Shown here piece after piece: positions 42,968 to 56,716 of a stretch of 60,251 bases of DNA. Under the pieces are notes generated by a model. That model had not been told where the DNA came from. It searched no databases and saw only the letters and a program-made list of their open reading frames with translations. Positions within the stretch are counted from its first letter, which is position 1. The number at the start of each line of letters is the position of its first letter. Position numbers and translations under genes: made by a program. Origin of the DNA: a bacterium (lineage in GTDB: Bacteria > SZUA-79 > Acidulodesulfobacterales > Acidulodesulfobacteraceae); NCBI GenBank assembly GCA_021818985.1, contig JAKASO010000009.1, forward strand, positions 1-60,251. Direction: 5' to 3'.

Positions 42968-43702
42968 TTAAATACTTCCAAGTAAAAAGCTTTTATGTTT
43001 ATTATTGTATACAAAAAGTCTGATAATTTTTACGGTAAGCACGCCTTTTGACGCCTTTATAGGTTTATAATAATAAACAAGAAAAATATTTCTTCTAACG
43101 TGGCCAAAAGTTCCGGTCCTTGAATTAAGGAATTTTTCCGCCATTTTGGGATTAACCCTAATAAAATTAAAATTTCCAGAATTCTCGTGAACTATCGTCA
43201 GGTTGTGGAACATATAATAAATATTCCCGTTCTCGGTCTTAATGAAGTTAATGTCCCTGTGCGTTCTCATCCCATTTTTTATAATTCTTTTCGACCTGTA
43301 ATATCTTAAATAAAAGCCGTTCTTTTCGTGGTTATAATGTCCTAAACGCGCATTAATATATCCTTCGAAGTATTGAACGGAGCTCACGTAGTTCAAAAGC
43401 TTTTTAAACCTTGCTTTGTCTTTTGTATAAAGATTATGCCAAAGAAATGAATTAAAACGGTCGTGCGCATATTTTGCAGGATTTACTATTTTAATATAAG
43501 TGATAACGGCCCGTTTTGTTAAAGGCTTTTTTTGAAGGTTAATATAGATTGCATATACAATCGGATTTGAGGCATAAACCGTGCCGCGCGCTTGTTTAAT
43601 ACCACCGGCATAAGCATTTTCAACGAAAAATAAAGTTAAAATAAACGAAGAGACAAATAAAATACAGCGAGCCGGCAAAAGCCGCTTATTTTTATTATTC
43701 AT
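42968..43702 (-). CDS. Secreted or periplasmic protein of unknown function, T4SS-associated
   Basis: A signal peptide is clear: basic N terminus (NKNKRLLPAR), hydrophobic core (CILFVSSFILTLFFV), and a cleavage-like AYA-GG near residue 33. The rest of the 244 residues is rich in Tyr and Lys (for example YLRYYRSKRIIKNG and YYYKPIKASKG) and has no family I recognise. It is the last gene of the T4SS-region run, 218 bases after the transglycosylase, with a 9-bp repeat array in front of it. Position suggests a periplasmic accessory or secreted substrate; this is inference. Confidence 0.6.
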   Translation of the reverse strand: MNNKNKRLLPARCILFVSSFILTLFFVENAYAGGIKQARGTVYASNPIVYAIYINLQKKPLTKRAVITYIKIVNPAKYAHDRFNSFLWHNLYTKDKARFKKLLNYVSSVQYFEGYINARLGHYNHEKNGFYLRYYRSKRIIKNGMRTHRDINFIKTENGNIYYMFHNLTIVHENSGNFNFIRVNPKMAEKFLNSRTGTFGHVRRNIFLVYYYKPIKASKGVLTVKIIRLFVYNNKHKSFLLGSI

Positions 43703-43766
43703 ACAAAATCACCTCATCTGTTATAATATAAGTTATAATTAGAAGCAGTTTACTATGTATCTATTT

Positions 43767-43829
43767 ATGAACGTTATGAACGTTATGAACGTTATGAACG
43801 TTATGAACGTTATGAACGTTATGAACGTT
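43767..43829. repeat. Seven tandem copies of ATGAACGTT
   Basis: The 9-mer ATGAACGTT is repeated exactly seven times without a break. Each unit holds the palindrome AACGTT, so the array presents seven evenly spaced palindromes. It lies in the 218-base gap before the last T4SS-region gene, 65 bases upstream of its start. It may bind a regulator or act as an iteron-like site. It is too short per unit and has no spacers, so it is not a CRISPR array. Confidence 0.85.
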
Positions 43830-43920
43830 CTTGATCTGAATATTTGATCGTCTGTTCAGATAAACTTAATATAATTTATTGCTTTTAAATTGTCAACAAA
43901 AGAATTTATAGTTGTAAAAT

Positions 43921-44694
43921 CTAATTAAGTAATTTATTGTAAAGACTGTAATATTTATGGACTATTAAAATGTAGTGTAAAGTGGCATTATAATCAGGGA
44001 TGGCCTCATACTTTTTACCGTCAAAAGCGCTGGTAGTTTTTACAGAGCCGGGGCCGGCATTATAACATGCCAGGGCAAAGACCGGCTTATCGTGAAATTT
44101 ATTCAGGCAGTAACGCAGATACTTTGCTCCGCCAAGAACATTCATAACGGGATCATAAGGATTTATACCAAGCTCTTTTGCGGTTTGCGGCATAATCTGC
44201 ATTAATCCGACGGCGCCCTTTGAACTAACGGCGTTTACATTAAAATCGCTTTCTACCCTGATTACGGCCAAAAGGAACGGGAGCGGAAAATTATATTGAA
44301 AAGAGGCGTTTATTATAGCTTCGTTTATAGCTTCATTTATCCCGTTTTGACTTATTCCGGGTTGATATATTCCAAAAATATAAGAACCGAAAGATAGATT
44401 TTTTACGGTAGTTTGGATCATGCCGGGTGATATATACGGAGCAGCGGCTTTCTCCGAGTCTGCTTTCCTGCCCGTTTTTTGAATGTTGGGATAGATCTTC
44501 TTTATAGTTTTTGGTCTTATACCGGATAATTTTAGATATAATACTGACATTTTCTCCTGTACGGCAGGATTCACCTTTATCTTTTGGGAATTGGCTAAAA
44601 GAGGCGCCTGAACACAACCGGACAGGAAAAGAAAGCATGTATTAAAAACTATAAACAGTACAATAACCAGATATTTTTTATGACAGGTTTTCAT
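43921..44694 (-). CDS. Lipoprotein lytic transglycosylase (SLT domain), T4SS-associated
   Basis: A VirB1-like enzyme that opens peptidoglycan for the secretion channel is the likely role. The lipobox is LSGC near residues 24-27, so it should be anchored to a membrane by lipid. The SLT domain has AVIRVESDFNVNAVSSKGA (catalytic Glu in IRVES), GLMQIMPQTAKELGI, and CYNAGPGSV. The length is 257. It follows the VirB9-like gene by 34 bases, in the same strand and order as the other T4SS genes. Confidence 0.88.
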   Translation of the reverse strand: MKTCHKKYLVIVLFIVFNTCFLFLSGCVQAPLLANSQKIKVNPAVQEKMSVLYLKLSGIRPKTIKKIYPNIQKTGRKADSEKAAAPYISPGMIQTTVKNLSFGSYIFGIYQPGISQNGINEAINEAIINASFQYNFPLPFLLAVIRVESDFNVNAVSSKGAVGLMQIMPQTAKELGINPYDPVMNVLGGAKYLRYCLNKFHDKPVFALACYNAGPGSVKTTSAFDGKKYEAIPDYNATLHYILIVHKYYSLYNKLLN

Positions 44695-44728
44695 ACAGTT
44701 TTTATATATTTATATATTTATAGCGATT

Positions 44729-45709
44729 TTATTTTAATATATTCCCGATATGTAATTTAACAAGCTTGCCATTGATTAAAATATGGACCGAAAATTTTAA
44801 ATTGCCGCCATTTTTTAAATCCGGTTTTTTAAAGATCACGACATTTTTAAAGATTTGATACGGCATATATTTTTTATTATGCGGAGTTTTGTTTATCAAA
44901 TAAATTTCTTCTGTGGAAGACGGCCTATAACCATTAAAAAAATTTTCCCCTTTTTCAATGTAGAGATATATATTCCTGATAAAAAAATAAGAATTCTTTG
45001 TATTGGTTATCTGATAACGGATATAATAAAGTTTGCCGATATGGCTTATAAAATCGGTAGTCAAAGTTATTCCGTCTTTTGTAATGCTTTTGCCTATTTT
45101 TAATTTGTTGATCGTAAGTATCAGATCCATGACCTTATGTTTTTCCTTTGTCAGTTCTTTCCTCTCTTTGTTCAACAAATCGTATTTTTCACGATATTTT
45201 ATTTCTAAAAGACTGTTTTCTTTTTGCACCATTGCCGCAATATAATTCTTTATAAAGCCGTTATTTCCCGGATTGGCAAGATCGAGATTATATGTAACGT
45301 CTTTGGGGCTTTTAATCCTTACAAGCACGTTTATTATTCCGTATTTTGTCAATATCTCAAGGTTCGTCGTCGTTTTGCGGTCGTAAGTCAGCGGTTTGAT
45401 AAATATCTGCTTTCCAAGGACTTCTTCCGAAAAGGCCGATGAGTTTCCAATAGCCACGTTTAACGGAATGTCCGGCAAAGTTATTATGCTCACATAACCC
45501 AAAGCGGTATTAAGCTTATAGATTATGCCGCTTTTTATTAAAAGCTTATGGATAAATATATTCTTTTTGAAGCTGAATTTTTTAAGATTTGAAAGAAGCA
45601 TTGCTTTTGCACTATGGTGAACAAAAAAGGTAAAAACGAGCATGATAATCAAAGATACAATAAACTTGAATACCAGTTTTAACCTGTTTTTTTTAATTAT
45701 TTTTTTCAT
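44729..45709 (-). CDS. VirB9/CagX-like T4SS outer-channel protein (divergent)
   Basis: The protein begins with a membrane or signal segment (FKFIVSLIIMLVFTFFV at about 15-30). Residues about 62-145 resemble the N-terminal VirB9 domain: IYKLNTALGYVSIITLPDI, then KQIFIKPLTYDRKTTTNLEI, where the family has 'iKP ... TNLxv'. A coiled-coil-like stretch is at about 150-190. The C-terminal half (LYYIRYQITNTKNSYFFI and NVVIFKKPDL) fits the VirB9 C-terminal beta domain. The overall similarity is weak, so the call relies on these segments and on the locus otherwise lacking VirB9. Confidence 0.55.
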   Translation of the reverse strand: MKKIIKKNRLKLVFKFIVSLIIMLVFTFFVHHSAKAMLLSNLKKFSFKKNIFIHKLLIKSGIIYKLNTALGYVSIITLPDIPLNVAIGNSSAFSEEVLGKQIFIKPLTYDRKTTTNLEILTKYGIINVLVRIKSPKDVTYNLDLANPGNNGFIKNYIAAMVQKENSLLEIKYREKYDLLNKERKELTKEKHKVMDLILTINKLKIGKSITKDGITLTTDFISHIGKLYYIRYQITNTKNSYFFIRNIYLYIEKGENFFNGYRPSSTEEIYLINKTPHNKKYMPYQIFKNVVIFKKPDLKNGGNLKFSVHILINGKLVKLHIGNILK

Positions 45710-45829
45710 GTTTTTAAATATGATTTAATTAAATTATTAGTTTTTTAGTTTTTTAGTTTAAGGACATTATGATAATTAATTATACTAAATTAAGTGTTAC
45801 AATTTTATGAACCTTTTGTTTCAATTTAA

Positions 45830-46156
45830 TTAATTTTTATAAATATTGTCGGAATTTTTTATTTTTTCAAGCTTATTATGCATTTTTAATTTTGCGCCTG
45901 TTAATCTTATTTCAAAAAATCGTACGTATGTTCCATGAACGCCTATTAAAAAAAGAAATACATTAAATAAATATAAAGCTATAACAACCTTATAATAATT
46001 AAAGGCATATCCTATAAACAGGTAGAAAGCATTGATAGAATATTTAAACTCTGCGTTTGTAAAATAAAATAACAAAAATAAGCCTGTAAGCGCCAGAAAA
46101 GCTATTTCTAATATATCTAAATCATTTCGGCCGTTATAATTTTCGCCGTTTTTCAT
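45830..46156 (-). CDS. Small membrane protein of unknown function in T4SS locus
   Basis: The 108-residue protein has two or three hydrophobic segments (IAFLALTGLFLLFYF, INAFYLFIGYAF, VIALYLFNVFLFLI) and a basic C-terminal tail (KLKMHNKLEKIKN). It starts 4 bases after VirD4 ends, so it is surely in the same operon. No family is recognised. A VirD4-binding or channel-linked role is only a guess from position. Confidence 0.6.
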   Translation of the reverse strand: MKNGENYNGRNDLDILEIAFLALTGLFLLFYFTNAEFKYSINAFYLFIGYAFNYYKVVIALYLFNVFLFLIGVHGTYVRFFEIRLTGAKLKMHNKLEKIKNSDNIYKN

Positions 46157-46160
46157 CTAA

Positions 46161-47942
46161 TCAGGATACCTCCCGATCAAAATAACTCTTATATTTCGAC
46201 CTGTAAAAAGGGTGTAAATAAACAATGCCGGGCCCTTCAACCGTTTTACCTGAATATATTCTGTAAATTGCCTGATTCAATTTAAGATTGGCAAAATCAT
46301 CGGTATCAAAAGCAGGCATCTTTTCCATTGTTTTTGTGGTTCCCTGAGATATTGTATTGTCGTCGGAAAGAAGACCGCCGATATTAACGTTGAACCTTGC
46401 TCCTTCATCCTGTTCCGTTATGTTTTCGGTAATCTTAACCTTAAACTCTTTGTCGCATATTTTTGATGCCTTTTCGCGGGAGTAATCGTCGCTTAAAGAT
46501 AGCCATATCGTAGATCTTATATTCCCTATGAGCGAATTTAGTTTTTCTTCGGAGCCCAATTTTAGTTTTAACGAACTATAACTTTGGGTCAGCATGATAT
46601 TTACCGCCTTTGACTGTCTGCACCTTGCAAAAAATTCGCTGTCCGATTCGATCTCTCCCGAAGTAACATAATTCTGGTATTCATCACATATAAAAAGCAC
46701 CGGTCTTTTCATGTTGATACTTCTGTCTGTAACAGCATTGTAAACCCTGTTCAGGACAGTCCTGAAATAGTCCAATTTAAGCATGATCCCGACGGCTCTT
46801 CCCGTTAAACCGTATTTTGATTCGTGCATCCTTAATATGACGATTTTCCCTTTATTAACGATCTCCTGAAATCCTGGAAAATTTAATTTTTCTTTTGGAA
46901 CGCAAAAAGTATTTTTATATACCGGATTAACAAAATCCGAACAGACCCTTAACGATTCGCTTTTAATTATTGCTTTCGTTCTTTCATCGAGTCCAGCATA
47001 ATCACTGCCTCTAAAATAGCCGGTATGAATTTTTAAATTATCAATATCATGAGCGTTTAAATCATTACCCGAAGCTATACTTTCGGCATAAAGAAGAATG
47101 TCTTCAAGCTTATTTTCATCGGAAATAATTTCGTATATCCCGTCTAAAGTAACATAATTAAAACATATTCTTAAAAGATCGAGACAGTGAGATAAGAGAT
47201 TTATAGATTTATCTTTCCAGTAGCTATCCTGTCTAGCATCATTTGACCGGACCTGCTCCATGGCGCTATACAATCTTTCCGCAATTACTTTAGCATCTAA
47301 AGAGGGATAATGGATTGGATTATAGAAATATCCGGAATCCGGTTCTATTATAATAATATCGTCAAGACGGCCATGCTTTGTAATTATATCCATGGCGGCT
47401 TTCCAAAAATCGCCCTTAACATCCAATATAAGCCCGCCGATTTTTTCATCAGCACTATTTTTTTTGCAGCTTATAAGCTGATCGAGAAAAGGATAGGCGC
47501 AGGCACTTGTTTTACCTGTCCCTGTTGAACCCACTACGAGTAAGCTGGTATAAAGCCCGTTTTTATCTATAATAAGCCACTCCGGTTTTCCAGCCATATT
47601 TCCATCCTTATTATGCAGTTCTCCCACGACTAACATAAAATCGTCCGTTGCCGGCCACGGCGGCATGCCGACGCTGCTCGGGCTCTTGATGATTTCGGTC
47701 TTTACAGGTTTAAAATAGAGATATTTGTTATAGATTATATTAAAAAACGCCCATGAAGAAAAAAACCATGTAATTACCGGCAGAAAAATAAAAAATGGTT
47801 TTACTGACCCAAAATAATAAAAATAATAATTTACCCTGCTATCGGAAAAAAAGCCCGAAAATACAAAAAGATATAAAAGCTCAGAAATAAATAAAAAACC
47901 AGCCCCCGCAAATTTTAAAATGAACCCTTTATTATTTTTCAT
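46161..47942 (-). CDS. VirD4-type coupling protein of the T4SS
   Basis: This inner-membrane ATPase brings substrates to the T4SS channel. Two N-terminal membrane helices lie at about 11-32 and 46-68. Walker A is GSTGTGKTS and Walker B is VLFICDEYQNY near residue 405, followed by the arginine/coupling segment RQSKAVNIMLTQSYSSLKLKLG. The GGLILDVKGDFWKAA segment after Walker A is typical of TraD/TraG/VirD4. The 593 residues are full length. It directly follows the MoxR-type ATPase and precedes the small membrane protein. Confidence 0.88.
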   Translation of the reverse strand: MKNNKGFILKFAGAGFLFISELLYLFVFSGFFSDSRVNYYFYYFGSVKPFFIFLPVITWFFSSWAFFNIIYNKYLYFKPVKTEIIKSPSSVGMPPWPATDDFMLVVGELHNKDGNMAGKPEWLIIDKNGLYTSLLVVGSTGTGKTSACAYPFLDQLISCKKNSADEKIGGLILDVKGDFWKAAMDIITKHGRLDDIIIIEPDSGYFYNPIHYPSLDAKVIAERLYSAMEQVRSNDARQDSYWKDKSINLLSHCLDLLRICFNYVTLDGIYEIISDENKLEDILLYAESIASGNDLNAHDIDNLKIHTGYFRGSDYAGLDERTKAIIKSESLRVCSDFVNPVYKNTFCVPKEKLNFPGFQEIVNKGKIVILRMHESKYGLTGRAVGIMLKLDYFRTVLNRVYNAVTDRSINMKRPVLFICDEYQNYVTSGEIESDSEFFARCRQSKAVNIMLTQSYSSLKLKLGSEEKLNSLIGNIRSTIWLSLSDDYSREKASKICDKEFKVKITENITEQDEGARFNVNIGGLLSDDNTISQGTTKTMEKMPAFDTDDFANLKLNQAIYRIYSGKTVEGPGIVYLHPFYRSKYKSYFDREVS

Positions 47943-47974
47943 TGGTATTTTTTAAAGGCAAGCCGTAAACGAAA

Positions 47975-48862
47975 TCAGGTTATTAATTTTTTGATCACGC
48001 TCTTTACGCTTCTTATGTCGGAATAAAACGTCCATAAAGACGATTCGATTGATTTAATATCTTCCATGCTTATCTCGTCCCTGCAATTAAGAAATGCATT
48101 AACCTGCATGATTCTGATGGTTTCGCGCCACCTTCTGTCGGAGACCGTTACCTGTTTATTTAGTAACTCCTCTCTGATATGATGCATGATATTGTAAATT
48201 TTCTCAGGAACCTTTATAAAAGCGGAGCTCTGTCCAATTAAATCGAGATCGCCGATGTTAATCTCGATGCCGCCATAACTATATTCTTCGGCTATATTTA
48301 AAAGTTTCGTAAAATTTTTAGGATCTTTTACGGGGGACACTTCATTTCGCAGTAAAAATCTGTCATATAACGGTAAAAGTGCAGCGCCGGAGGATTTATC
48401 AGGTTTTTCATTGGAAGTTGCAAACAAGCTTATTAAAGGAATTGCAGCTGGCTGGGGCGCATAAATTATTCTTTCGTTCATTATAGAAAGCAGCGAATTT
48501 AATGTCGGCGAAGGCCCCTTAAAAAATTCGTCTATCAAAGCTATCTCGCATTTATCTATACCCTGCCCCATGTTTGCCTTATTTTTTGAAAGGAGGCTAT
48601 CTATTTCCGTTAGAGGGGTCATTTGATAATCAAAAAACCGGAGCCCTTTAATATGTTTTGAAAACGCTTTTAAGACCCCTGTTTTTGCCAGTCCTGGATC
48701 GCCAACTAATATCATGTGCTTTCTTGAGGCTATCGAAAGAATTATAGTTTCGATAATTTCGGACCTTTCGATGAAATACGAATTAAGCTTTTTCTTTATT
48801 GTAATGAGTTTCTCTCTAATAAAGCCGGCTTTTTTCGGTTCTTTTTCTTTAACGCTATTCAT
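47975..48862 (-). CDS. MoxR/RavA-type AAA+ ATPase in the T4SS operon
   Basis: This AAA+ ATPase of the MoxR superclass has Walker A GDPGLAKT (residues 54-61), Walker B IALIDE (107-112), sensor 1 LFATSNEKPD (Asn151) and the RavA-like LLPLYDRFLLRNEV segment. The lid domain with sensor 2 (VSDRRWRETIRIMQ) matches RavA-type members, and the 295 residues are a single ATPase domain. RavA-type proteins work with VWA partners as metal-loading or complex-assembly chaperones; no VWA protein is seen here. The gene lies between virB10 and virD4, where other T4SS have VirB11. Whether it replaces VirB11 or helps assemble the machine is unknown. Confidence 0.85.
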   Translation of the reverse strand: MNSVKEKEPKKAGFIREKLITIKKKLNSYFIERSEIIETIILSIASRKHMILVGDPGLAKTGVLKAFSKHIKGLRFFDYQMTPLTEIDSLLSKNKANMGQGIDKCEIALIDEFFKGPSPTLNSLLSIMNERIIYAPQPAAIPLISLFATSNEKPDKSSGAALLPLYDRFLLRNEVSPVKDPKNFTKLLNIAEEYSYGGIEINIGDLDLIGQSSAFIKVPEKIYNIMHHIREELLNKQVTVSDRRWRETIRIMQVNAFLNCRDEISMEDIKSIESSLWTFYSDIRSVKSVIKKLIT

Positions 48863-48941
48863 CTTATTTTTGTCTTATAAACTAAAGGAAATTTTAGGAA
48901 ATTTTGCAATTAATATTATGTTAATTATATTAATTTTAATA

Positions 48942-50138
48942 TCATTTTAAGTGAATAGAGCGGAGAAAGATTATTTTAATAGGTGTATCCTTCGGCAGTG
49001 TAATTGTCGTCCTTCGCATGGAGCTGCTAAAGGAGTTTATACTGTTTTGCGCCTGACCAATTTCGTTTTGAGCCACATTTTGCCGTAATTGATCCTGAAA
49101 TGTATAAGGATTGGATGAATTAACCGCTGAACCTCCGCCTGCAAGCAAAGCGGCCGCCCCGATGACCCCTTCTACGGCGGATGTCAGAATATTGCCAGTA
49201 TAATGATGATGCACATTTCCTTTTACTCCGCCGGAACCGTCAGCCGTCATGGCTATTGCATCAATATTCAGACTTTTTCCATCGGATTTGATTATTTTAT
49301 TAAAGTTCATATTAAGCCTGTTTAACGAATGCTTTATGCTGACCATACCAAAGAATTTATCCCCTTTTTTCAGCACCGCTTTTTTATTGCGGTAAAAGCT
49401 GTGCAAAAGGATAGCTATAACCGGAACCTCTGTATTATAAGAAAAAATCTTATATTTAGTATAAGCATCCATAACCGTGCCTATGGGTATCGTAAAACCG
49501 TTTTCATTTGTTTTATCTGCCGCAGGGGTGAAGATGCCCGTTTTATATGCATAGTGGACCATTTTATTTTTTTTATCACCCTCTTCCTCTTTTGCTACCT
49601 TTCTTTCATAACTTAATTTAATAAATACAATCATTTTTTTTGCTATCGCCGGTTTTTGCATGTTTATTGCAGTTTCATAACTGGCAATATCTTTATTTTT
49701 ATTTTGCTGGACATTAATTTTCTTTAGCGTCATCATTTCTTTGTTAAATTTATTGTTAAAATTCTTACCGGCTTTTGAATTATCCATGATATTTGCCGGC
49801 GTTCTATTAATGTTATCAAAAGTGGACGAAGAGAATCTTCTTTTATAGCTTATAATCTTGTTTTTTATTATCTTAGGTTTTCCGGCAGTTTGGTTTTTCT
49901 CTCTATATATTTTGGAAAAGATAAGTTTAAAGGCTATAAAAGATAAAAATAATAAAATTAAAATAAAAAGAGGCAAGCGGTAGGATTTTAAAATACTGTT
50001 TTTTGCCTTAGTATTAGCAGGCATGGAATTATAAATATCGTTCTTTTTATCCACTCCAGTACCATCGCTATTATTTTGTCCCTCTGTTATTATATGACGA
50101 CCTAATCCGCTACTTTCCGAAAATGGATTAAATTTCAT
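48942..50138 (-). CDS. VirB10/TrbI-like T4SS channel protein
   Basis: VirB10 spans both membranes and forms the outer channel. One membrane helix (residues about 51-70, LPLFILILLFLSFIAFKLI) is preceded by a short cytosolic part and followed by a charged periplasmic linker (about 75-180). The C-terminal beta domain has the family pattern PIGTVMDAYTKYKIFS, KKGDKFFG, LNIDAIAMTADG and GAAALLAGGGS, and ends with ITLPKDTPIKIIFL. The length is 398. Its ATG overlaps the stop of the VirB8 gene by one base. Confidence 0.82.
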   Translation of the reverse strand: MKFNPFSESSGLGRHIITEGQNNSDGTGVDKKNDIYNSMPANTKAKNSILKSYRLPLFILILLFLSFIAFKLIFSKIYREKNQTAGKPKIIKNKIISYKRRFSSSTFDNINRTPANIMDNSKAGKNFNNKFNKEMMTLKKINVQQNKNKDIASYETAINMQKPAIAKKMIVFIKLSYERKVAKEEEGDKKNKMVHYAYKTGIFTPAADKTNENGFTIPIGTVMDAYTKYKIFSYNTEVPVIAILLHSFYRNKKAVLKKGDKFFGMVSIKHSLNRLNMNFNKIIKSDGKSLNIDAIAMTADGSGGVKGNVHHHYTGNILTSAVEGVIGAAALLAGGGSAVNSSNPYTFQDQLRQNVAQNEIGQAQNSINSFSSSMRRTTITLPKDTPIKIIFLRSIHLK

Positions 50139-50797
50139 TAAGCACCACCTAATTTTAATGTATTAAAATATTCGACTTCCAATCCAAACGGGTATTCCAA
50201 GCTTCTTTTTACCCTCTTTAAAATCAGTTTGTCTTCAAAAGCCTTGCTGTCTTCAATTTTTGAATCGGCATTGGAAATTACCTTTCTTATTATGTAAAAT
50301 TTTAAAACATCATGGTTGACCGTCTGTCTGACAAGCTTTATTTTCCTGAATTTTATTCTCGAAGATATATTGGCTCTTTCCATTTTTTGAATGAAGTTAT
50401 CTTTTAAAATCGTTTTAAGGGTGTTATTCCCGTATGAAGGAGCCATTTTATTAAGAGCCCGTGAAAGCTGGGTTTTGATCGTTAATGAATTAAAGCCGGT
50501 AAATTCTCTTATAAAGCTTTTAGAAAAATACAAGATCTCTCCTATTCCAACTTTATTGTTTAACGGTAAATTCCTTAATATTTTTGCATTACCCGCCTTA
50601 GATACCCTTATGACTATAGGAACCCTGTTTATTTTGTAAGTATAAAAAGAGGTAAAAAGGGCGGTTACCGTTATTACCGCCATTAGCAGGATCACGACTT
50701 TAAGCGTTGCGTTCTGAGCGTTTAAATCCCCCCAGATTTCATAGAAAAATCTTTTATTATTTTTTTTACCGTCTTTTATATTAAAAAAATTAAACAT
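50138..50797 (-). CDS. VirB8/TraE-like T4SS protein
   Basis: This bitopic inner-membrane protein, 219 residues, has one helix at about 32-52 (LKVVILLMAVITVTALFTSF) and a periplasmic domain rich in beta and helix. The size and layout fit VirB8 or TraE of conjugation systems; the sequence is divergent, so family assignment uses position between VirB6 and VirB10. It shares one base with the virB10 start. Confidence 0.65.
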   Translation of the reverse strand: MFNFFNIKDGKKNNKRFFYEIWGDLNAQNATLKVVILLMAVITVTALFTSFYTYKINRVPIVIRVSKAGNAKILRNLPLNNKVGIGEILYFSKSFIREFTGFNSLTIKTQLSRALNKMAPSYGNNTLKTILKDNFIQKMERANISSRIKFRKIKLVRQTVNHDVLKFYIIRKVISNADSKIEDSKAFEDKLILKRVKRSLEYPFGLEVEYFNTLKLGGA

Positions 50798-50871
50798 ATA
50801 AGATATAAGAAATAAGAAAGAAAGACTGTATTAACCATTAATTAATTTGTTTGCGTTATATTGCCGGATGA

Positions 50872-51951
50872 TTATTTCTTTTCCCCAATAAAGTTTCTTG
50901 CGATCCCTTTATGCGGATTTTCATAAACGCTGTCAAAAAGTTTTCCTACGATAAAAGGTACCGTTATTGATAAAAATGCCATGCAGATAAAAATAACAAC
51001 ATCTTCGGCAAAAGTCAGCGCACCAAGGAATTGGCCGAATCCGTAGCCGGATGACGAGAAATCCACGGATGCGATCTTCACAAGTATAGTAAAAAAAACA
51101 AGTTGTTCAAGGGCTACCACTATTCCCCAGCATGATACTTCTATAAATATTTTAAGCCACTTCCCGAAAACCTTTCTTGTGTACGGAATCGTCTCAAATC
51201 CAAGAATGATTGGACATATTGCTACCAATATGCCTAAAATTATAAGCTGCACAAATGCCATTCCTAACTGAATTACCAGATAAAAAAGGTTAAATAAGAA
51301 CCAAATAATGCTTAAGAGGATCCTTCCAGTTAAAGCATGAACCGCTCCAGCAAACCATGAAAACGGGTTTAAATTCCAGCCGCTTTTAACGGACGAGGTG
51401 CCATTGGTTGAAACAGTCGGCAAAGACAGATGTCTCAGTTCGGACAGTATTGACGCATTGATCTGCGAGATACTGCCGTAATCAAATACATTTATTTTTA
51501 AAAGATACAGCTGAAGTTTATCGGCGATCGTAAGAATATCCTCCGTAAAGTTAGAGGTGCCGGCCGATTTCCATGATAAAAAACCCACTGCAATTAATAC
51601 GGTTCTTAAAAACAAGTCGTAATAATTAAAAGATTGCCCCGTAAGCTCCAGCCTATAGCCCTCCCACAACGAAAAGATTATTCCCGCAGCGAACAAAAAA
51701 TAAAACATATATGTTGTAAAATTCACTAAATTTGAATACCGGTTTAATGCAGGCGGCAGGGAATCTATAGAAAGGATCGTAAGATCCTGGCCCGATCCAA
51801 ACTTTGAAATAGAAAGGACGGACGAATTCATATTAGCCGGCGAAGTTGAGCTGGAGGCGGAGTTAGTTAAAGCATAAGAGTTTTCTGACGGCACTAAAAA
51901 ATAAATTATCAAAAAAGCAGCGAGCATAAATTTTAATGTTGCAAGCTTCAT
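50872..51951 (-). CDS. VirB6/TrbL-like polytopic T4SS protein
   Basis: This membrane protein of 359 residues has an N-terminal signal-like segment (MLAAFLIIYFLVPSENSYA), then an exported Ser-rich part, and at least five hydrophobic segments, including MFYFLFAAGIIFSLWEG, ILLSIIWFLFNLFYLVIQLG and FAEDVVIFICMAFLSITVPF. This layout matches VirB6/TrbL, the inner-membrane channel part. It stands between VirB5 and VirB8, the usual place. Confidence 0.75.
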   Translation of the reverse strand: MKLATLKFMLAAFLIIYFLVPSENSYALTNSASSSTSPANMNSSVLSISKFGSGQDLTILSIDSLPPALNRYSNLVNFTTYMFYFLFAAGIIFSLWEGYRLELTGQSFNYYDLFLRTVLIAVGFLSWKSAGTSNFTEDILTIADKLQLYLLKINVFDYGSISQINASILSELRHLSLPTVSTNGTSSVKSGWNLNPFSWFAGAVHALTGRILLSIIWFLFNLFYLVIQLGMAFVQLIILGILVAICPIILGFETIPYTRKVFGKWLKIFIEVSCWGIVVALEQLVFFTILVKIASVDFSSSGYGFGQFLGALTFAEDVVIFICMAFLSITVPFIVGKLFDSVYENPHKGIARNFIGEKK

Positions 51952-51996
51952 TTTGTTTCTATAATGCTGTTATAATGCTATTATATTATTATAATG

Positions 51997-53160
51997 CTAT
52001 AATGTTGTTTGAGAATAAAAAGCTATGCCGTTATCCTGTGGATTTCGATCGTTTGGTGGTAATAAAGACGAACCTACATGCTCTTTTCTGATCTCGTTTG
52101 CGGAATCGGTCATTTCAAGCTGCTTCAACTGGCTTTCTATATAACCCATATTTTTTAAGTTAGCCGCATTTTCTTCGGCTATCACAGATAAAACCGAACT
52201 TTGATAAGTATAATAATTTGAACTTTTACCGGAAATACCGGCAATCTGGTTTTCAAATTCATCGCCTTCAAATTCGGCTTTATGCGCCCTTGCCTCGGAG
52301 ATCCCTGCATTGTCAAGGTTCATTGCAGACATATTATTGATAAAGCTGCTTACATAATCGGTGCACCCTTGAACAAATTCCCCGCCGTTATATAAACAAT
52401 TATCATTAGGTCCCTTTCCAAAAGCGTTGATGCCGTTATTACCCGCAGGATCAAACACCATTGAATCCACAAAGTTATTTGAATCGCCCCAAAGATTATC
52501 TTTATCTTGCGCAATGCCCGAAATAATATTCTCGATTCCTGAAAAGCTACCGTTGCCGTTACCATCCTGCAAAAGAGGACCAAACTGGCTTTTTATTTCA
52601 TTAATTTCGGAGCTAAGCGAGTTTATCAAGGCATTGATGTTTGATACCCCTTGAAGGTCGCTTTGCGTCAATCCGTTCGCCGTAATGCCGTTAACCCCCT
52701 GTCCTCCGGTATAATCCTGATTTGAAAGTATCTTGCCCGCAAAAACATTATTTAATGTATTATTCAGGTTATTGATATTGCCAAATGCATTATTGACAGC
52801 ATTTACAAGATGCAGTAATTTGGCATAATTTATTTCTATTCCTTGATATATTTCTTCCATTTTTGAAATATCGGCAGTTAATGCTTCAAATGATTGAAGC
52901 CCCTGGCCTATCCCTATACCTGGGGTTGCTACCGGTAGTCCTGCAGCCTGCGCCGACGAAGCAACCGCCCCAACGGCTGTCATTGCACCGCTTGCAGCTG
53001 TCGAAACAGTCTGTATTTCGTTTAGAATATTGCTTATATCCGGTAGACTGCCGGCTTTTACCGGATAACTGCCAATATAGAAAACCATAATAAAAATTGT
53101 AAAGACTGCAATAAAGCCTCGTATAAAATAAGAAATATTCTTAAATATTTTATTTAACAT
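51997..53160 (-). CDS. VirB5/TrbJ-like T4SS protein
   Basis: This is probably a periplasmic, pilus-tip or channel protein. A signal peptide (FIRGFIAVFTIFIMVFYIG) is followed by a cleavage-like VKAGS, then a long helical region with Ala- and Asn-rich stretches (for example NNAFGNINNLNNTLNNVF), as in VirB5/TrbJ. I chose the ATG at 53160 (MLNKIF) over the one at 53172, because GGAGAG lies 5 bases before it. This gives 387 residues and overlaps the virB4 end by 11 bases. Assignment rests on layout and position. Confidence 0.6.
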   Translation of the reverse strand: MLNKIFKNISYFIRGFIAVFTIFIMVFYIGSYPVKAGSLPDISNILNEIQTVSTAASGAMTAVGAVASSAQAAGLPVATPGIGIGQGLQSFEALTADISKMEEIYQGIEINYAKLLHLVNAVNNAFGNINNLNNTLNNVFAGKILSNQDYTGGQGVNGITANGLTQSDLQGVSNINALINSLSSEINEIKSQFGPLLQDGNGNGSFSGIENIISGIAQDKDNLWGDSNNFVDSMVFDPAGNNGINAFGKGPNDNCLYNGGEFVQGCTDYVSSFINNMSAMNLDNAGISEARAHKAEFEGDEFENQIAGISGKSSNYYTYQSSVLSVIAEENAANLKNMGYIESQLKQLEMTDSANEIRKEHVGSSLLPPNDRNPQDNGIAFYSQTTL

Positions 53161-55735
53161 CTTTCTCTCCATTTTTTTTAATCCCGTAAGGACCGTTAGG
53201 AAATTTTTCAGCTAATATCTCAAGTCTCTGTTTAAGGTCAATATCCGGATACGTCATGGCAATGCCGTTTTCCAGCTCTTCATCCTCCAACGACTTACAA
53301 CACAGCCAATATTCAAAAGGATCTGGTTCATTTTTAATCACGGCAGAGTCTTTTCCGAACTTTAAAAAATACTCCGCAAAATGTCCTTTTACAACCTTCA
53401 AGTTTTTTACGACGGCAATCTCTTTATCGTTTAATCCGCAAAATTTAAGATCCTCCGATGAAACATCACCGTCCATTTGACAAAATATCTTTATCGTAGA
53501 ATTTTCAATAATGCTTTTTCCCAAGTTTCCGGTTTTTAAAAGATCCGCCGGTTCCTGCGTTATACTCCATACTAAGGATCCCCATTTTGCGGATGTTTTA
53601 TAAAGATGGATTATCAGGTCGGCGATCTTCGGATCGGTCATAAATTCCCAGCATTCGTCATAAAAAAAGAACACTTTTGCTGTCCTATCATACATTTTTT
53701 TAAACGACAGATTTTTAATTATCGCAAATACAATCTTTTGCAATTCCTCATGTCCTTTTAGTTTCTGCAGGTCAAATATAACAATCTTGTTATGCAGGTT
53801 AATGCCGCCTTTTCTGTTAAGCAACATGCTATACGGCGATGTAATATCCGTCCACCTGAAAAGATTCTTCCCCATCTCCATCGCTCTTTTTTTATCATCA
53901 ATATCCCTGCCTTCAGTATAATTAAATAAAACATTGTTAATATCCGAGATTGTGGGCATATTGGCATCGCCTACTATTGCATCGTAAGAAGATTGAATCG
54001 CCCTTGCTATAATGATCCTGTCATTGGGAGATAACTGCTTTTCCGGCTCTACCATAAGGCCTATGATGCCTATTAAAAAAACCATGACGTCGGGATCGTA
54101 TATCTCTTCTCCGTCGATCGTCTTAATAATGTCCGTTTTTGGCGGAAATGGATTTAGGCAATAAGTTCCGTCCATATCTATCTCTATATAATCCCCGCTA
54201 AATATCTTGCAAAATTTTCTGTAAGTTCCGCCAATATCAACACCAATAATATGGTAGTTCTCTCCCGACAGAAAAAAGTTTGTAAGAAACCCGTTAAGCA
54301 TAAAACCCTTTCCGCTTCTTGTCTTGCCGAAAACTATTCCATGTTTGGAAGGGAGTTTGTTATTATAAAGATCAAGGCTTACACATTCGTGCCTGTTATT
54401 TTTAAGCGGTATCGGGCAGTTGTCCGTTCCGCTCCAGCCTTTATGAAGCGGAAAAAAAGGGGCGGCGGACGACGAGACAAGCGTTTTAAATCTTCTGTTA
54501 AAATACGCCTGTCCCGGAAGAAACGAAAGAAAAAGATTTTTATGCTCCATGTTATCGTTTATCCCTTCCATGAAGTTAAAATTTTTAAACGACTGAATAA
54601 CCTTTGAAACTCGATCATTCAATATCTCTAATGTTTTTGACCTTAACCTTACGCAAAAAGACATGTTGATCGCTTTTTTCTGAAGTCCTGAAACAACAGC
54701 CAAAAAATCGTCCATCTGGGATGTAATCGTTTCACCCCTGTAATCTTTATACCCACCATTTACCGCATCTGTCAGGCTTGCCTTAATATTTCTCTGCGAC
54801 TGGATCTTGTTGATTATTTTCTCCTGCTCCGGTATATTAAATGCAACTTGGACATCATAAGGAAAAAAGCTCTCTGGAAAACCTATATCTAAAAGAGGCG
54901 TGATGCCAAAAGAATCAGTTCCCGACGGAAGCCTGTGCATATTAATAAATTTGTGATAATAGCCGTCAATAAAAAAATGATCGGTCTTTGTCGTGGCGGG
55001 AGAAAAGATCAAAGAACTTCTTAAAATACCCTCCGCCAAAATGTTCTCATATAACGGAGGGGTTGTAAAATTTGATCTTTCGGGATTTAACTCTTCGTAA
55101 TAGTAATTAATCAATTCCTGATCCGACATGCGTTTTATCTCGATATTTAATCTTGAAGAAAAAAAACTCAAGTTGCTTTGAAGGTTTTCCACCTTTCTTA
55201 AAATTATCTCGAATTCATTTTTAGCCTTTACACCCGCGTTTGAACCCGAAACATCGCCTATATTCAATTTGAATAATTTTGCCGTAAAATCACTAATTTT
55301 GGAAAATAAGCCGACCTCATGTATTTTTTTGGGGTTAAACCCGTAAACCGTATAAAAGAGAAAAATCGTGATTTTCTTGGCAGGTTTTATTCTTAACGAT
55401 CTTAGCCTTTTTTCTTTAATAAACAGATATTTTTCTGAAGGTTTTGATGATTTAGAATAGTTTTCGATGAATTCATCATCATGGTCCGATATTTTATATA
55501 CCCATTGAATACCAATATTTTCGCTAAGCATGTTAAGAAAAAGATCATTAATATAAGCGGCGTCATCAATTATTTCATCTGCGGCAAGCAAATAATCAAA
55601 GCCTTTAACCTTAAAACCAACCGTAAAAGAACCGTCAACCCCGATAATAATATTATTAAAAACGGTTAAAAGGTTAATAAAATTATTAAGAGAGTCAAAT
55701 CGTTCCTGTTTTTTTAAAATCGAGGTCGTCAACAT
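53150..55735 (-). CDS. VirB4/TrbE-type T4SS ATPase
   Basis: This large ATPase powers assembly of the T4SS and is its most conserved part. Walker A is IVFGKTRSGKGFMLNG near residue 464 and Walker B is FFFYDECWEFM near 684, with the VirB4 motif SITQEPADLLK shortly after. The N-terminal CagE/TrbE-like domain covers about 30-400. The 861 residues are full length. It overlaps virB3 at its start by 41 bases and virB5 at its end, so the operon is tightly packed. Confidence 0.92.
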   Translation of the reverse strand: MLTTSILKKQERFDSLNNFINLLTVFNNIIIGVDGSFTVGFKVKGFDYLLAADEIIDDAAYINDLFLNMLSENIGIQWVYKISDHDDEFIENYSKSSKPSEKYLFIKEKRLRSLRIKPAKKITIFLFYTVYGFNPKKIHEVGLFSKISDFTAKLFKLNIGDVSGSNAGVKAKNEFEIILRKVENLQSNLSFFSSRLNIEIKRMSDQELINYYYEELNPERSNFTTPPLYENILAEGILRSSLIFSPATTKTDHFFIDGYYHKFINMHRLPSGTDSFGITPLLDIGFPESFFPYDVQVAFNIPEQEKIINKIQSQRNIKASLTDAVNGGYKDYRGETITSQMDDFLAVVSGLQKKAINMSFCVRLRSKTLEILNDRVSKVIQSFKNFNFMEGINDNMEHKNLFLSFLPGQAYFNRRFKTLVSSSAAPFFPLHKGWSGTDNCPIPLKNNRHECVSLDLYNNKLPSKHGIVFGKTRSGKGFMLNGFLTNFFLSGENYHIIGVDIGGTYRKFCKIFSGDYIEIDMDGTYCLNPFPPKTDIIKTIDGEEIYDPDVMVFLIGIIGLMVEPEKQLSPNDRIIIARAIQSSYDAIVGDANMPTISDINNVLFNYTEGRDIDDKKRAMEMGKNLFRWTDITSPYSMLLNRKGGINLHNKIVIFDLQKLKGHEELQKIVFAIIKNLSFKKMYDRTAKVFFFYDECWEFMTDPKIADLIIHLYKTSAKWGSLVWSITQEPADLLKTGNLGKSIIENSTIKIFCQMDGDVSSEDLKFCGLNDKEIAVVKNLKVVKGHFAEYFLKFGKDSAVIKNEPDPFEYWLCCKSLEDEELENGIAMTYPDIDLKQRLEILAEKFPNGPYGIKKNGEKDVK

Positions 55736-56075
55736 TTTTCAGGTTCCTTAAATTTTCAATAATGTCCGAAAGTTCCTTTAAATTTTCATTTTCGCTTACA
55801 AGATCCCTTCCCGGTTCAAGAACTGTAAGATCTTTTACGGAAAAAAAATAATTTATCAGCGTTGTGGTATAAAATTCGGGTTTCCCTTTTTTATAATTCC
55901 TTAAAAATATTAAAAATAACAGATCGGAAAGAAGCGCAATTATGATCTGATCTTTAAAAACAAGTATTACGGCCATTGTGAAAAATATATATAGTCCCCA
56001 ATCGTAAATCTCAAGACCGAATTTTGTCAGCCTGTCATGAATTTCCCGATGTATTTTGAACTTTTTTAAACTCAT
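55695..56075 (-). CDS. VirB3/TraL-like T4SS protein
   Basis: This small inner-membrane protein of 126 residues has two hydrophobic segments (WGLYIFFTMAVILVF and IIIALLSDLLFLIFL). The N terminus and the segment KKGKPEFYTTTLINYFF resemble VirB3/TraL family members. It overlaps virB4 by 41 bases, the standard VirB3-VirB4 order. The polar C-terminal tail is longer than usual. Confidence 0.7.
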   Translation of the reverse strand: MSLKKFKIHREIHDRLTKFGLEIYDWGLYIFFTMAVILVFKDQIIIALLSDLLFLIFLRNYKKGKPEFYTTTLINYFFSVKDLTVLEPGRDLVSENENLKELSDIIENLRNLKNVDDLDFKKTGTI

Positions 56076-56194
56076 TTTTTGAATTTATTTCATATTTCTT
56101 AAATAATTTCATATGCCTTAAATATCAATCGCGGTTGCTAAATCCTGAATACGGTAACTGTTTTATCTTAAGCGAGAAAGGTTTCGTCAATTTT

Positions 56195-56716
56195 TTAAGG
56201 CTGACCTACGGTCGTTGCTCCGTTTCCGCTACCGATGCTAATTCCGCCGGCAGCGCCGCCGGCGCTTTGAACTATGCCGAGAACCGCATTGGTTATTGTC
56301 GGCGCAAGCATTACCCCCGTTCCCGCCGCCGCTGTTATAAAAGCCTTTCTCGCTGCATCCGGCTTATGTTGTTTTATATCGTAAAAGCCTTTTATAAGCC
56401 CTATGCTCAATGTAGCAGGGGCAAGCCGGTAGCAAATCCAAGTAGTCGCTTCACTTAAAATTCCCGAGGCTCCTATGCCGAGCGAACCCTGATTAAGATT
56501 TATCGTCCCAAAGGCTTTAGAAGATTCGGACAAAATTGAAACAAATAGAAAAAGCCCGACAAAACCTGTCCTCATAAATCGCAATTTATCGAAATTTATA
56601 GTTTTCTTCGGTAATGTCAGGCGTAATTTTTTTAAAAAATCGTCTCGAACAATACCTGACAATAGACTTGCCGAGAGCTTTCTGAAAAAATCTTCATAAA
56701 AAGTGGTAATTTTCAT
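56195..56716 (-). CDS. VirB2/TrbC-like major pilin candidate
   Basis: The C-terminal half holds two hydrophobic helices separated by a short polar loop: ICYRLAPATLSIGLIKGFYD and AAAGTGVMLAPTITNAVLGI, the layout of VirB2/TrbC pilins, followed by a Gly-rich end (GGAAGGISIGSGNG). The precursor has a long N-terminal part of about 70 residues including a signal-like helix (FVGLFLFVSILSESSKAFG), so the mature pilin would start near residue 70. An AAGGAG site lies 9 bases before the ATG, so the start is sure. It is the first gene of the T4SS operon. Confidence 0.65.
   Translation of the reverse strand: MKITTFYEDFFRKLSASLLSGIVRDDFLKKLRLTLPKKTINFDKLRFMRTGFVGLFLFVSILSESSKAFGTINLNQGSLGIGASGILSEATTWICYRLAPATLSIGLIKGFYDIKQHKPDAARKAFITAAAGTGVMLAPTITNAVLGIVQSAGGAAGGISIGSGNGATTVGQP

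Follow-up and report, generated by a model that had tools for sequence, protein, structure and literature searches.

A MoxR-type AAA+ ATPase gene is linked to a VirB11-less type IV secretion system in Candidatus Acidulodesulfobacterales

In classical type IV secretion systems (T4SSs), the gene order runs virB10-virB11-virD4, and chromosomal T4SSs that kill other bacteria retain VirD4 and carry VirB11 while having no conjugation relaxase. MoxR ATPases, for their part, usually work with VWA proteins. According to PMC12624023, VirB11 normally lies beneath the VirB4 hexamer, and a table in that paper lists F-type T4SSs without VirB11; the bacteria-killing systems, an example of chromosomal T4SSs that have no relaxase, are covered by a review (PMC6536674). 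Pairing of MoxR with a VWA protein is described in PMC4858521 and PMC5898192, the former placing archaeal MoxR/GvpN-vWA pairs beside type IV pili. Among open-licence papers, we found no relevant one that joins MoxR with a T4SS, VirB4 or conjugation. The locus analyzed here resides in a genome (1.62 Mb in 89 contigs, rated 100% complete) of Ca. Acidulodesulfobacterales (SZUA-79), an order described in PMC6776010.

Within the window, i.e. the whole stretch of 60,251 nucleotides that we analyzed, the T4SS locus occupies positions 42968-56716 on the minus strand, to which all coordinates below refer. A sequence-only reading of this DNA had proposed 13 T4SS genes in a VirB-like order; all 13 ORFs were confirmed in position and strand. 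Three core components are recognized by sequence: the VirB4/TraC ATPase (861 aa, 53150..55735; TIGR02746, 2.5e-59; TIGR00929, 1.3e-37; PF19044, 4e-28), VirB10 (398 aa, 48942..50138; PF03743, 2.9e-16; pKM101 TraF structure, 3.8e-4) and the VirD4 coupling ATPase (593 aa, 46161..47942; PF02534, 1.3e-10; PF12696 (TraG-D_C), 2.5e-6; NF045973, 2.7e-14). VirB8 (219 aa, 50138..50797), with no sequence match, is recognized by fold only, its AlphaFold model (pLDDT 71) matching the R388, Bartonella and Brucella VirB8 structures at Foldseek values of 8e-6 to 4e-4, while VirB9 (326 aa, 44729..45709) is recognized by profile and fold (R388 TrwF hmmsearch, 8.6e-4; TIGR02781, 1.1e-3; fold, 1.1e-8), its predicted model showing a long helix between the N-terminal and C-terminal domains; these models are monomers built from shallow alignments. 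Assignment is weaker for the VirB6/TrbL-like membrane protein (359 aa, 50872..51951; PF04610 at a sub-threshold E=0.01; conserved throughout classes A, B and C, defined below) and the VirB3/TraL-like protein (126 aa, 55695..56075; TraL PF07178, E=0.008, below the Pfam cut-off; conserved before VirB4), where weak matches are combined with position, and likewise for two candidates judged by position, size and look: a VirB2-like pilin (173 aa, 56195..56716), first in the operon, with hydrophobic segments, conservation across classes A and B and no Pfam match, and a VirB5-like protein (391 aa, 51997..53172), conserved in position between VirB4 and VirB6 with no Pfam match above cut-off. The VirB1-like lytic transglycosylase (43921..44694; SLT PF01464, 5.6e-26) bears a lipobox, LSGC, as read from its sequence, and its N-terminus may be a VirB7 substitute. 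Other genera have a separate lipoprotein gene followed by a shorter SLT gene, and genus g2 has neither at that place. Two further genes next to this core encode a small conserved membrane protein (108 aa, 45830..46156) after VirD4, seen in class A only and with no family match, and an exported DUF4852 protein (244 aa, 42968..43702; PF16144, 7e-6), which is the last gene in most class A loci and for which a plasmid search returned no relative.

The locus resembles VirB/Trw systems (MPF_T) in its VirB2-B10/VirD4 order and in the likeness of VirB8, VirB9 and VirB10 to R388/pKM101 parts, but it has no VirB11, its VirB8 and VirB9 are too diverged for the Pfam models, and a MoxR gene takes the place after virB10. 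The VirB-like label fits the gene order but gives only part of the picture, since the closest VirB4 model is that of F-type TraC. The better score with TraC, a VirB3 resembling TraL and the lack of VirB11 are shared with F-type systems (MPF_F); the F-specific TraU, TraN, TraH, TraW and TrbC were found neither among the 13 proteins with Pfam nor among the ten scanned with NCBIfam. In contrast to the window locus, F-type T4SS stretches of the same family (L235-L241) contain no MoxR; three of them, L235, L236 and L237, were recognized as F-like from the arrangement of their genes together with a weak match to VirB4.

The gene between virB10 and virD4 (47975..48862, 295 aa) does encode a MoxR-type AAA+ ATPase, as the sequence-only reading had it. 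Its product matches bpMoxR (PF20030, 1.2e-26), AAA_lid_8, AAA_5, PF17868 (8e-16) and RavA (1e-30), comprising an AAA+ core with Walker A/B, sensors and Arg finger together with a MoxR lid; Walker A, Walker B, sensor 1, Arg finger and sensor 2 are intact in 33/33 relatives. RavA is the closest solved relative (crystal structure match, 1.2e-49; entries 6q7l and 6sza), and these entries we take to be hexamer-based complexes of a ring ATPase. The MoxR proteins of two genomes (L086:6895-7980 and L087:7175-8278) harbor long Gly/Ala/Glu-rich insertions, reaching 361-367 aa in all. Although the window MoxR has the same core and lid domains and intact ATPase motifs as RavA and bpMoxR, it is shorter than RavA, has no VWA partner gene and has the T4SS as its genetic partner. 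The absence of a VWA partner, noted earlier for the window, extends beyond it: Pfam and NCBIfam scans found no VWA gene in the locus, the single VWA_2 gene of the genome lies on another contig beside a kinase-like gene, and eight class A-bearing relatives (G002, G003, G004, G006, G007, G009, G011 and G014) have no VWA_2 gene at all. We surmise from these results that the partner of MoxR is probably a T4SS subunit. The archaeal MoxR/GvpN-vWA pairs are comparable in that a MoxR-type ATPase is linked to a secretion-like machine, but those machines (PMC4858521) are archaeal type IV pili and the ATPase comes with a vWA partner.

MoxR and VirB4 relatives occur in nearly every family member, and upon reading 34 stretches of relatives, with genera given as codes (g2, g5 etc.), we distinguished three classes of loci. 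Class A, including the window, consists of chromosomal orthologues in six genus-level groups with the order B2-B3-B4-B5-B6-B8-B10-MoxR-D4-g108-B9-(lipoprotein)-(SLT)-DUF4852, and in 23/23 loci (22 relatives and the window) moxR is flanked by virB10 and virD4, all three genes sharing one strand. Class B follows the same order up to MoxR and continues with B9, virD4 not adjoining, with MoxR directly after virB10 on the same strand in all five loci. Class C has the order B8-B9-B10-(DUF192-like)-B4-B5-B6-SLT-MoxR, followed in several copies by an excisionase-like gene and an integrase, and here MoxR comes after the SLT gene on the same strand, the ORFs overlapping, in 6 of 6 loci. Both class B and class C reside on integrase-bearing elements, with a TrwC (MOBF) relaxase, ParB and a tyrosine integrase as neighbors in class B, and a short VirD4, ParA/ParB and a weak Replic_Relax match in class C copies; judging from this gene content, they look like integrated conjugative elements. 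In the class B elements (L089-L092, L109, L110 and L112), the T4SS is followed by secretin, PilB-type ATPase, pilin-like and GGDEF genes, making up a T4SS plus type IV pilus element.

MoxR is thus found inside the T4SS cluster in 11/11 class B and C loci despite their different gene order and despite VirB4 identities to class A down to ~31%. The expectation that moxR would always lie between virB10 and virD4 held in class A but not in class B or C, while the alternative outcome, a locus without moxR in close relatives, was not encountered. In the MoxR tree, the MoxRs of T4SS loci group together, apart from their nearest counterparts elsewhere (100/99), with A+B split from C (100/99), and VirB4 branches likewise into A+B, then C; long branches were flagged, making the exact rooting unsure. 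This constant linkage and co-inheritance with VirB4 through three lineages, which bears out moxR as part of the T4SS, is functional coupling, even if linkage does not tell which step MoxR serves. That moxR follows the machine in this way suggests that its product takes part in the working of the T4SS. Genes of the MoxR type occur widely, often in the vicinity of other gene sets, and a passenger gene, placed by chance or serving an unrelated housekeeping job, would be in keeping with that habit; we rejected the chance neighbor and consider any passenger role extremely unlikely, given that moxR has stayed with this T4SS in all three lineages despite differing gene orders and yet does not accompany the other T4SSs of these genomes. 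MoxR might also act on substrates and not on the machine, unfolding effectors or stripping a DNA-protein complex. AAA+ proteins do remodel substrates, and moxR adjoins virD4 in class A, but in class B it is positioned between virB10 and virB9 with virD4 not beside it, and it is kept both with a relaxase (class B) and where none was found (class A), leaving a substrate role improbable.

Ca. Acidulodesulfobacterales is an uncultured order with acid mine drainage as its habitat; the genome was placed in it by named relatives in a scan of GTDB species genomes, among them Ca. Acididesulfobacter diazotrophicus and the MAG SZUA-79. All MoxRs with at least 35% identity in that scan came from this order, and every neighborhood read was a T4SS locus; near the nearest 51 MoxRs from elsewhere (at most 34% identity), no T4SS genes were seen in the stretches examined. 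The nearest MoxR outside the order is a 383-aa protein whose gene closes type II secretion (gsp) operons, following the gene in the GspK position (L144-L154, L166, L175 and L177; Dadabacteria, Thermodesulfobacteria and other deltaproteobacterial MAGs), and among open-licence papers we found none describing it. Among the matches listed in the plasmid search, identity reached no more than ~32% for MoxR and ~25% for VirB4, the best listed VirB4 match being Myxococcus plasmid pYRE with no MoxR nearby; an IMG/VR scan yielded nothing with VirB4 and only 24-31% relatives with MoxR. The stretches examined around more distant VirB4 loci (G061, G121, G259 and pYRE) also had no MoxR, in a thin sampling of T4SSs outside the order that comprised 386 genomes with one VirB4 profile and one contig scan of at least 80 loci. 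MoxR is accordingly not a general T4SS need, as VirB11-less T4SSs exist without it (F-type; the G061 and pYRE loci).

The position of MoxR invites the reading that it is a non-orthologous replacement of VirB11, a second ring ATPase that would dock under VirB4 and power or switch pilus assembly and substrate transfer. VirB11 is indeed missing from the locus, as previously noted, and from the rest of the genome, where the best TIGR02788 score was 64 bits against a cut-off of 250 and came from ATPases of PilT/PilB size. We rejected the ATPases on contigs C27 and C30 as VirB11 on account of their far better scores with the general T2SSE model, their PilT/PilB sizes and, for C27, neighbors resembling recA and recX. 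Profile searches likewise found no VirB11 in 14/18 family genomes carrying class A, the other four (G008, G012, G013 and G015) having VirB11-like genes (~164 bits) that are always on contigs other than that of the class A locus. A replacement would also agree with the match between virB10-moxR-virD4 and the classical virB10-virB11-virD4 order, with the ring formation of RavA relatives, and with the place beneath the VirB4 hexamer that VirB11 normally takes (PMC12624023). However, the gap is not odd in itself, since F-type T4SSs are also without VirB11 and no VirB11 motif was seen near those related MoxR-less VirB4 loci that were checked; as VirB11-less T4SSs without MoxR exist, MoxR is not needed to explain the gap, and absence of VirB11 alone is ordinary. 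Nothing, in other words, needed replacing. In addition, class C moxR does not adjoin virB10, and MoxR and VirB11 are different ATPase folds. We regard a replacement as possible though doubtful.

As for the relaxase, none of the five families covered by our searches was found in the locus or in its own genome, in agreement with the sequence-only reading: TrwC (PF08751), Relaxase (PF03432), MobA_MobL (PF03389) and Replic_Relax (PF13814) gave no match, and TraI_2 (PF07514) matched only ~35 residues in a protein of 350 aa that is matched in almost every relative. We rejected this fragment as a MOBH relaxase; to us it looks like an HD motif belonging to an unrelated HD-domain protein. As to the earlier suggestion that a relaxase may lie outside the window, the relaxase-free copy looks like a fixed chromosomal system and not like a conjugation system truncated by the window edge. 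This is exemplified by: 1) common flanks across genera, with an fba or thioesterase gene on one side and thiH/thiG/rsuA on the other; 2) VirB4 and VirD4 trees of class A that recover genera g2, g5 and the g6+g3 group, so that, together with the shared flanks, class A looks vertically inherited; 3) none of the ParA/ParB, relaxase and integrase features of the class B and C elements in class A, and no integrase seen beside class A loci. Across the class A T4SS genes, dN/dS in six pairs was 0.05-0.35 (0.07-0.26 for MoxR), indicating purifying selection. Two ORFs make up virD4 at L100:8691-10471 in one genome (G006, Ca. Acididesulfobacter AP1), owing either to an assembly error or to a break in the gene. 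The missing relaxase and the vertical inheritance together argue that class A has probably been domesticated as a secretion system. Like the bacteria-killing T4SSs, class A keeps VirD4 and has no conjugation relaxase found, but those systems carry VirB11 and class A does not. Class A could mobilize an element through a relaxase family outside these five, and retention of VirD4 and a sister class B that is a MOBF integrative element would fit an ordinary conjugation system with its relaxase and oriT elsewhere or its relaxase of another family; given the own-genome searches, the vertical and syntenic inheritance and the lack of a neighboring integrase, this is unlikely.

Taking these data together, we favor, at a probability of roughly 60%, that class A belongs to a VirB11-less T4SS lineage in which a MoxR AAA+ ATPase is dedicated to assembly or remodeling. 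We postulate that such a lineage of Ca. Acidulodesulfobacterales took up MoxR as this dedicated component, and that MoxR, by analogy with RavA, would form a hexameric ring assembling or remodeling the inner-membrane complex (VirB4/VirB10/VirD4) at its cytoplasmic face. Because no VWA partner goes with it, MoxR would act directly on a T4SS subunit. Class A may have been domesticated for moving proteins, or for relaxase-independent movement of DNA, and VirD4 presumably still chooses the substrate.

The energy parts of T4SSs are thought to be VirB4, VirD4 and often VirB11, and a T4SS-tied MoxR would add a fourth type; with the clients of MoxR proteins mostly unknown, it would also supply a defined multi-protein client. 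If replacement of VirB11 were true, this would be a T4SS type with a MoxR hexamer as cytoplasmic motor or switch. That the nearest outside MoxRs close type II secretion operons is a hint that one branch of MoxR proteins may serve envelope-spanning secretion machines. For the organisms themselves, the locus points to a T4SS that is fixed, and probably domesticated, throughout this uncultured order of acid mine drainage.
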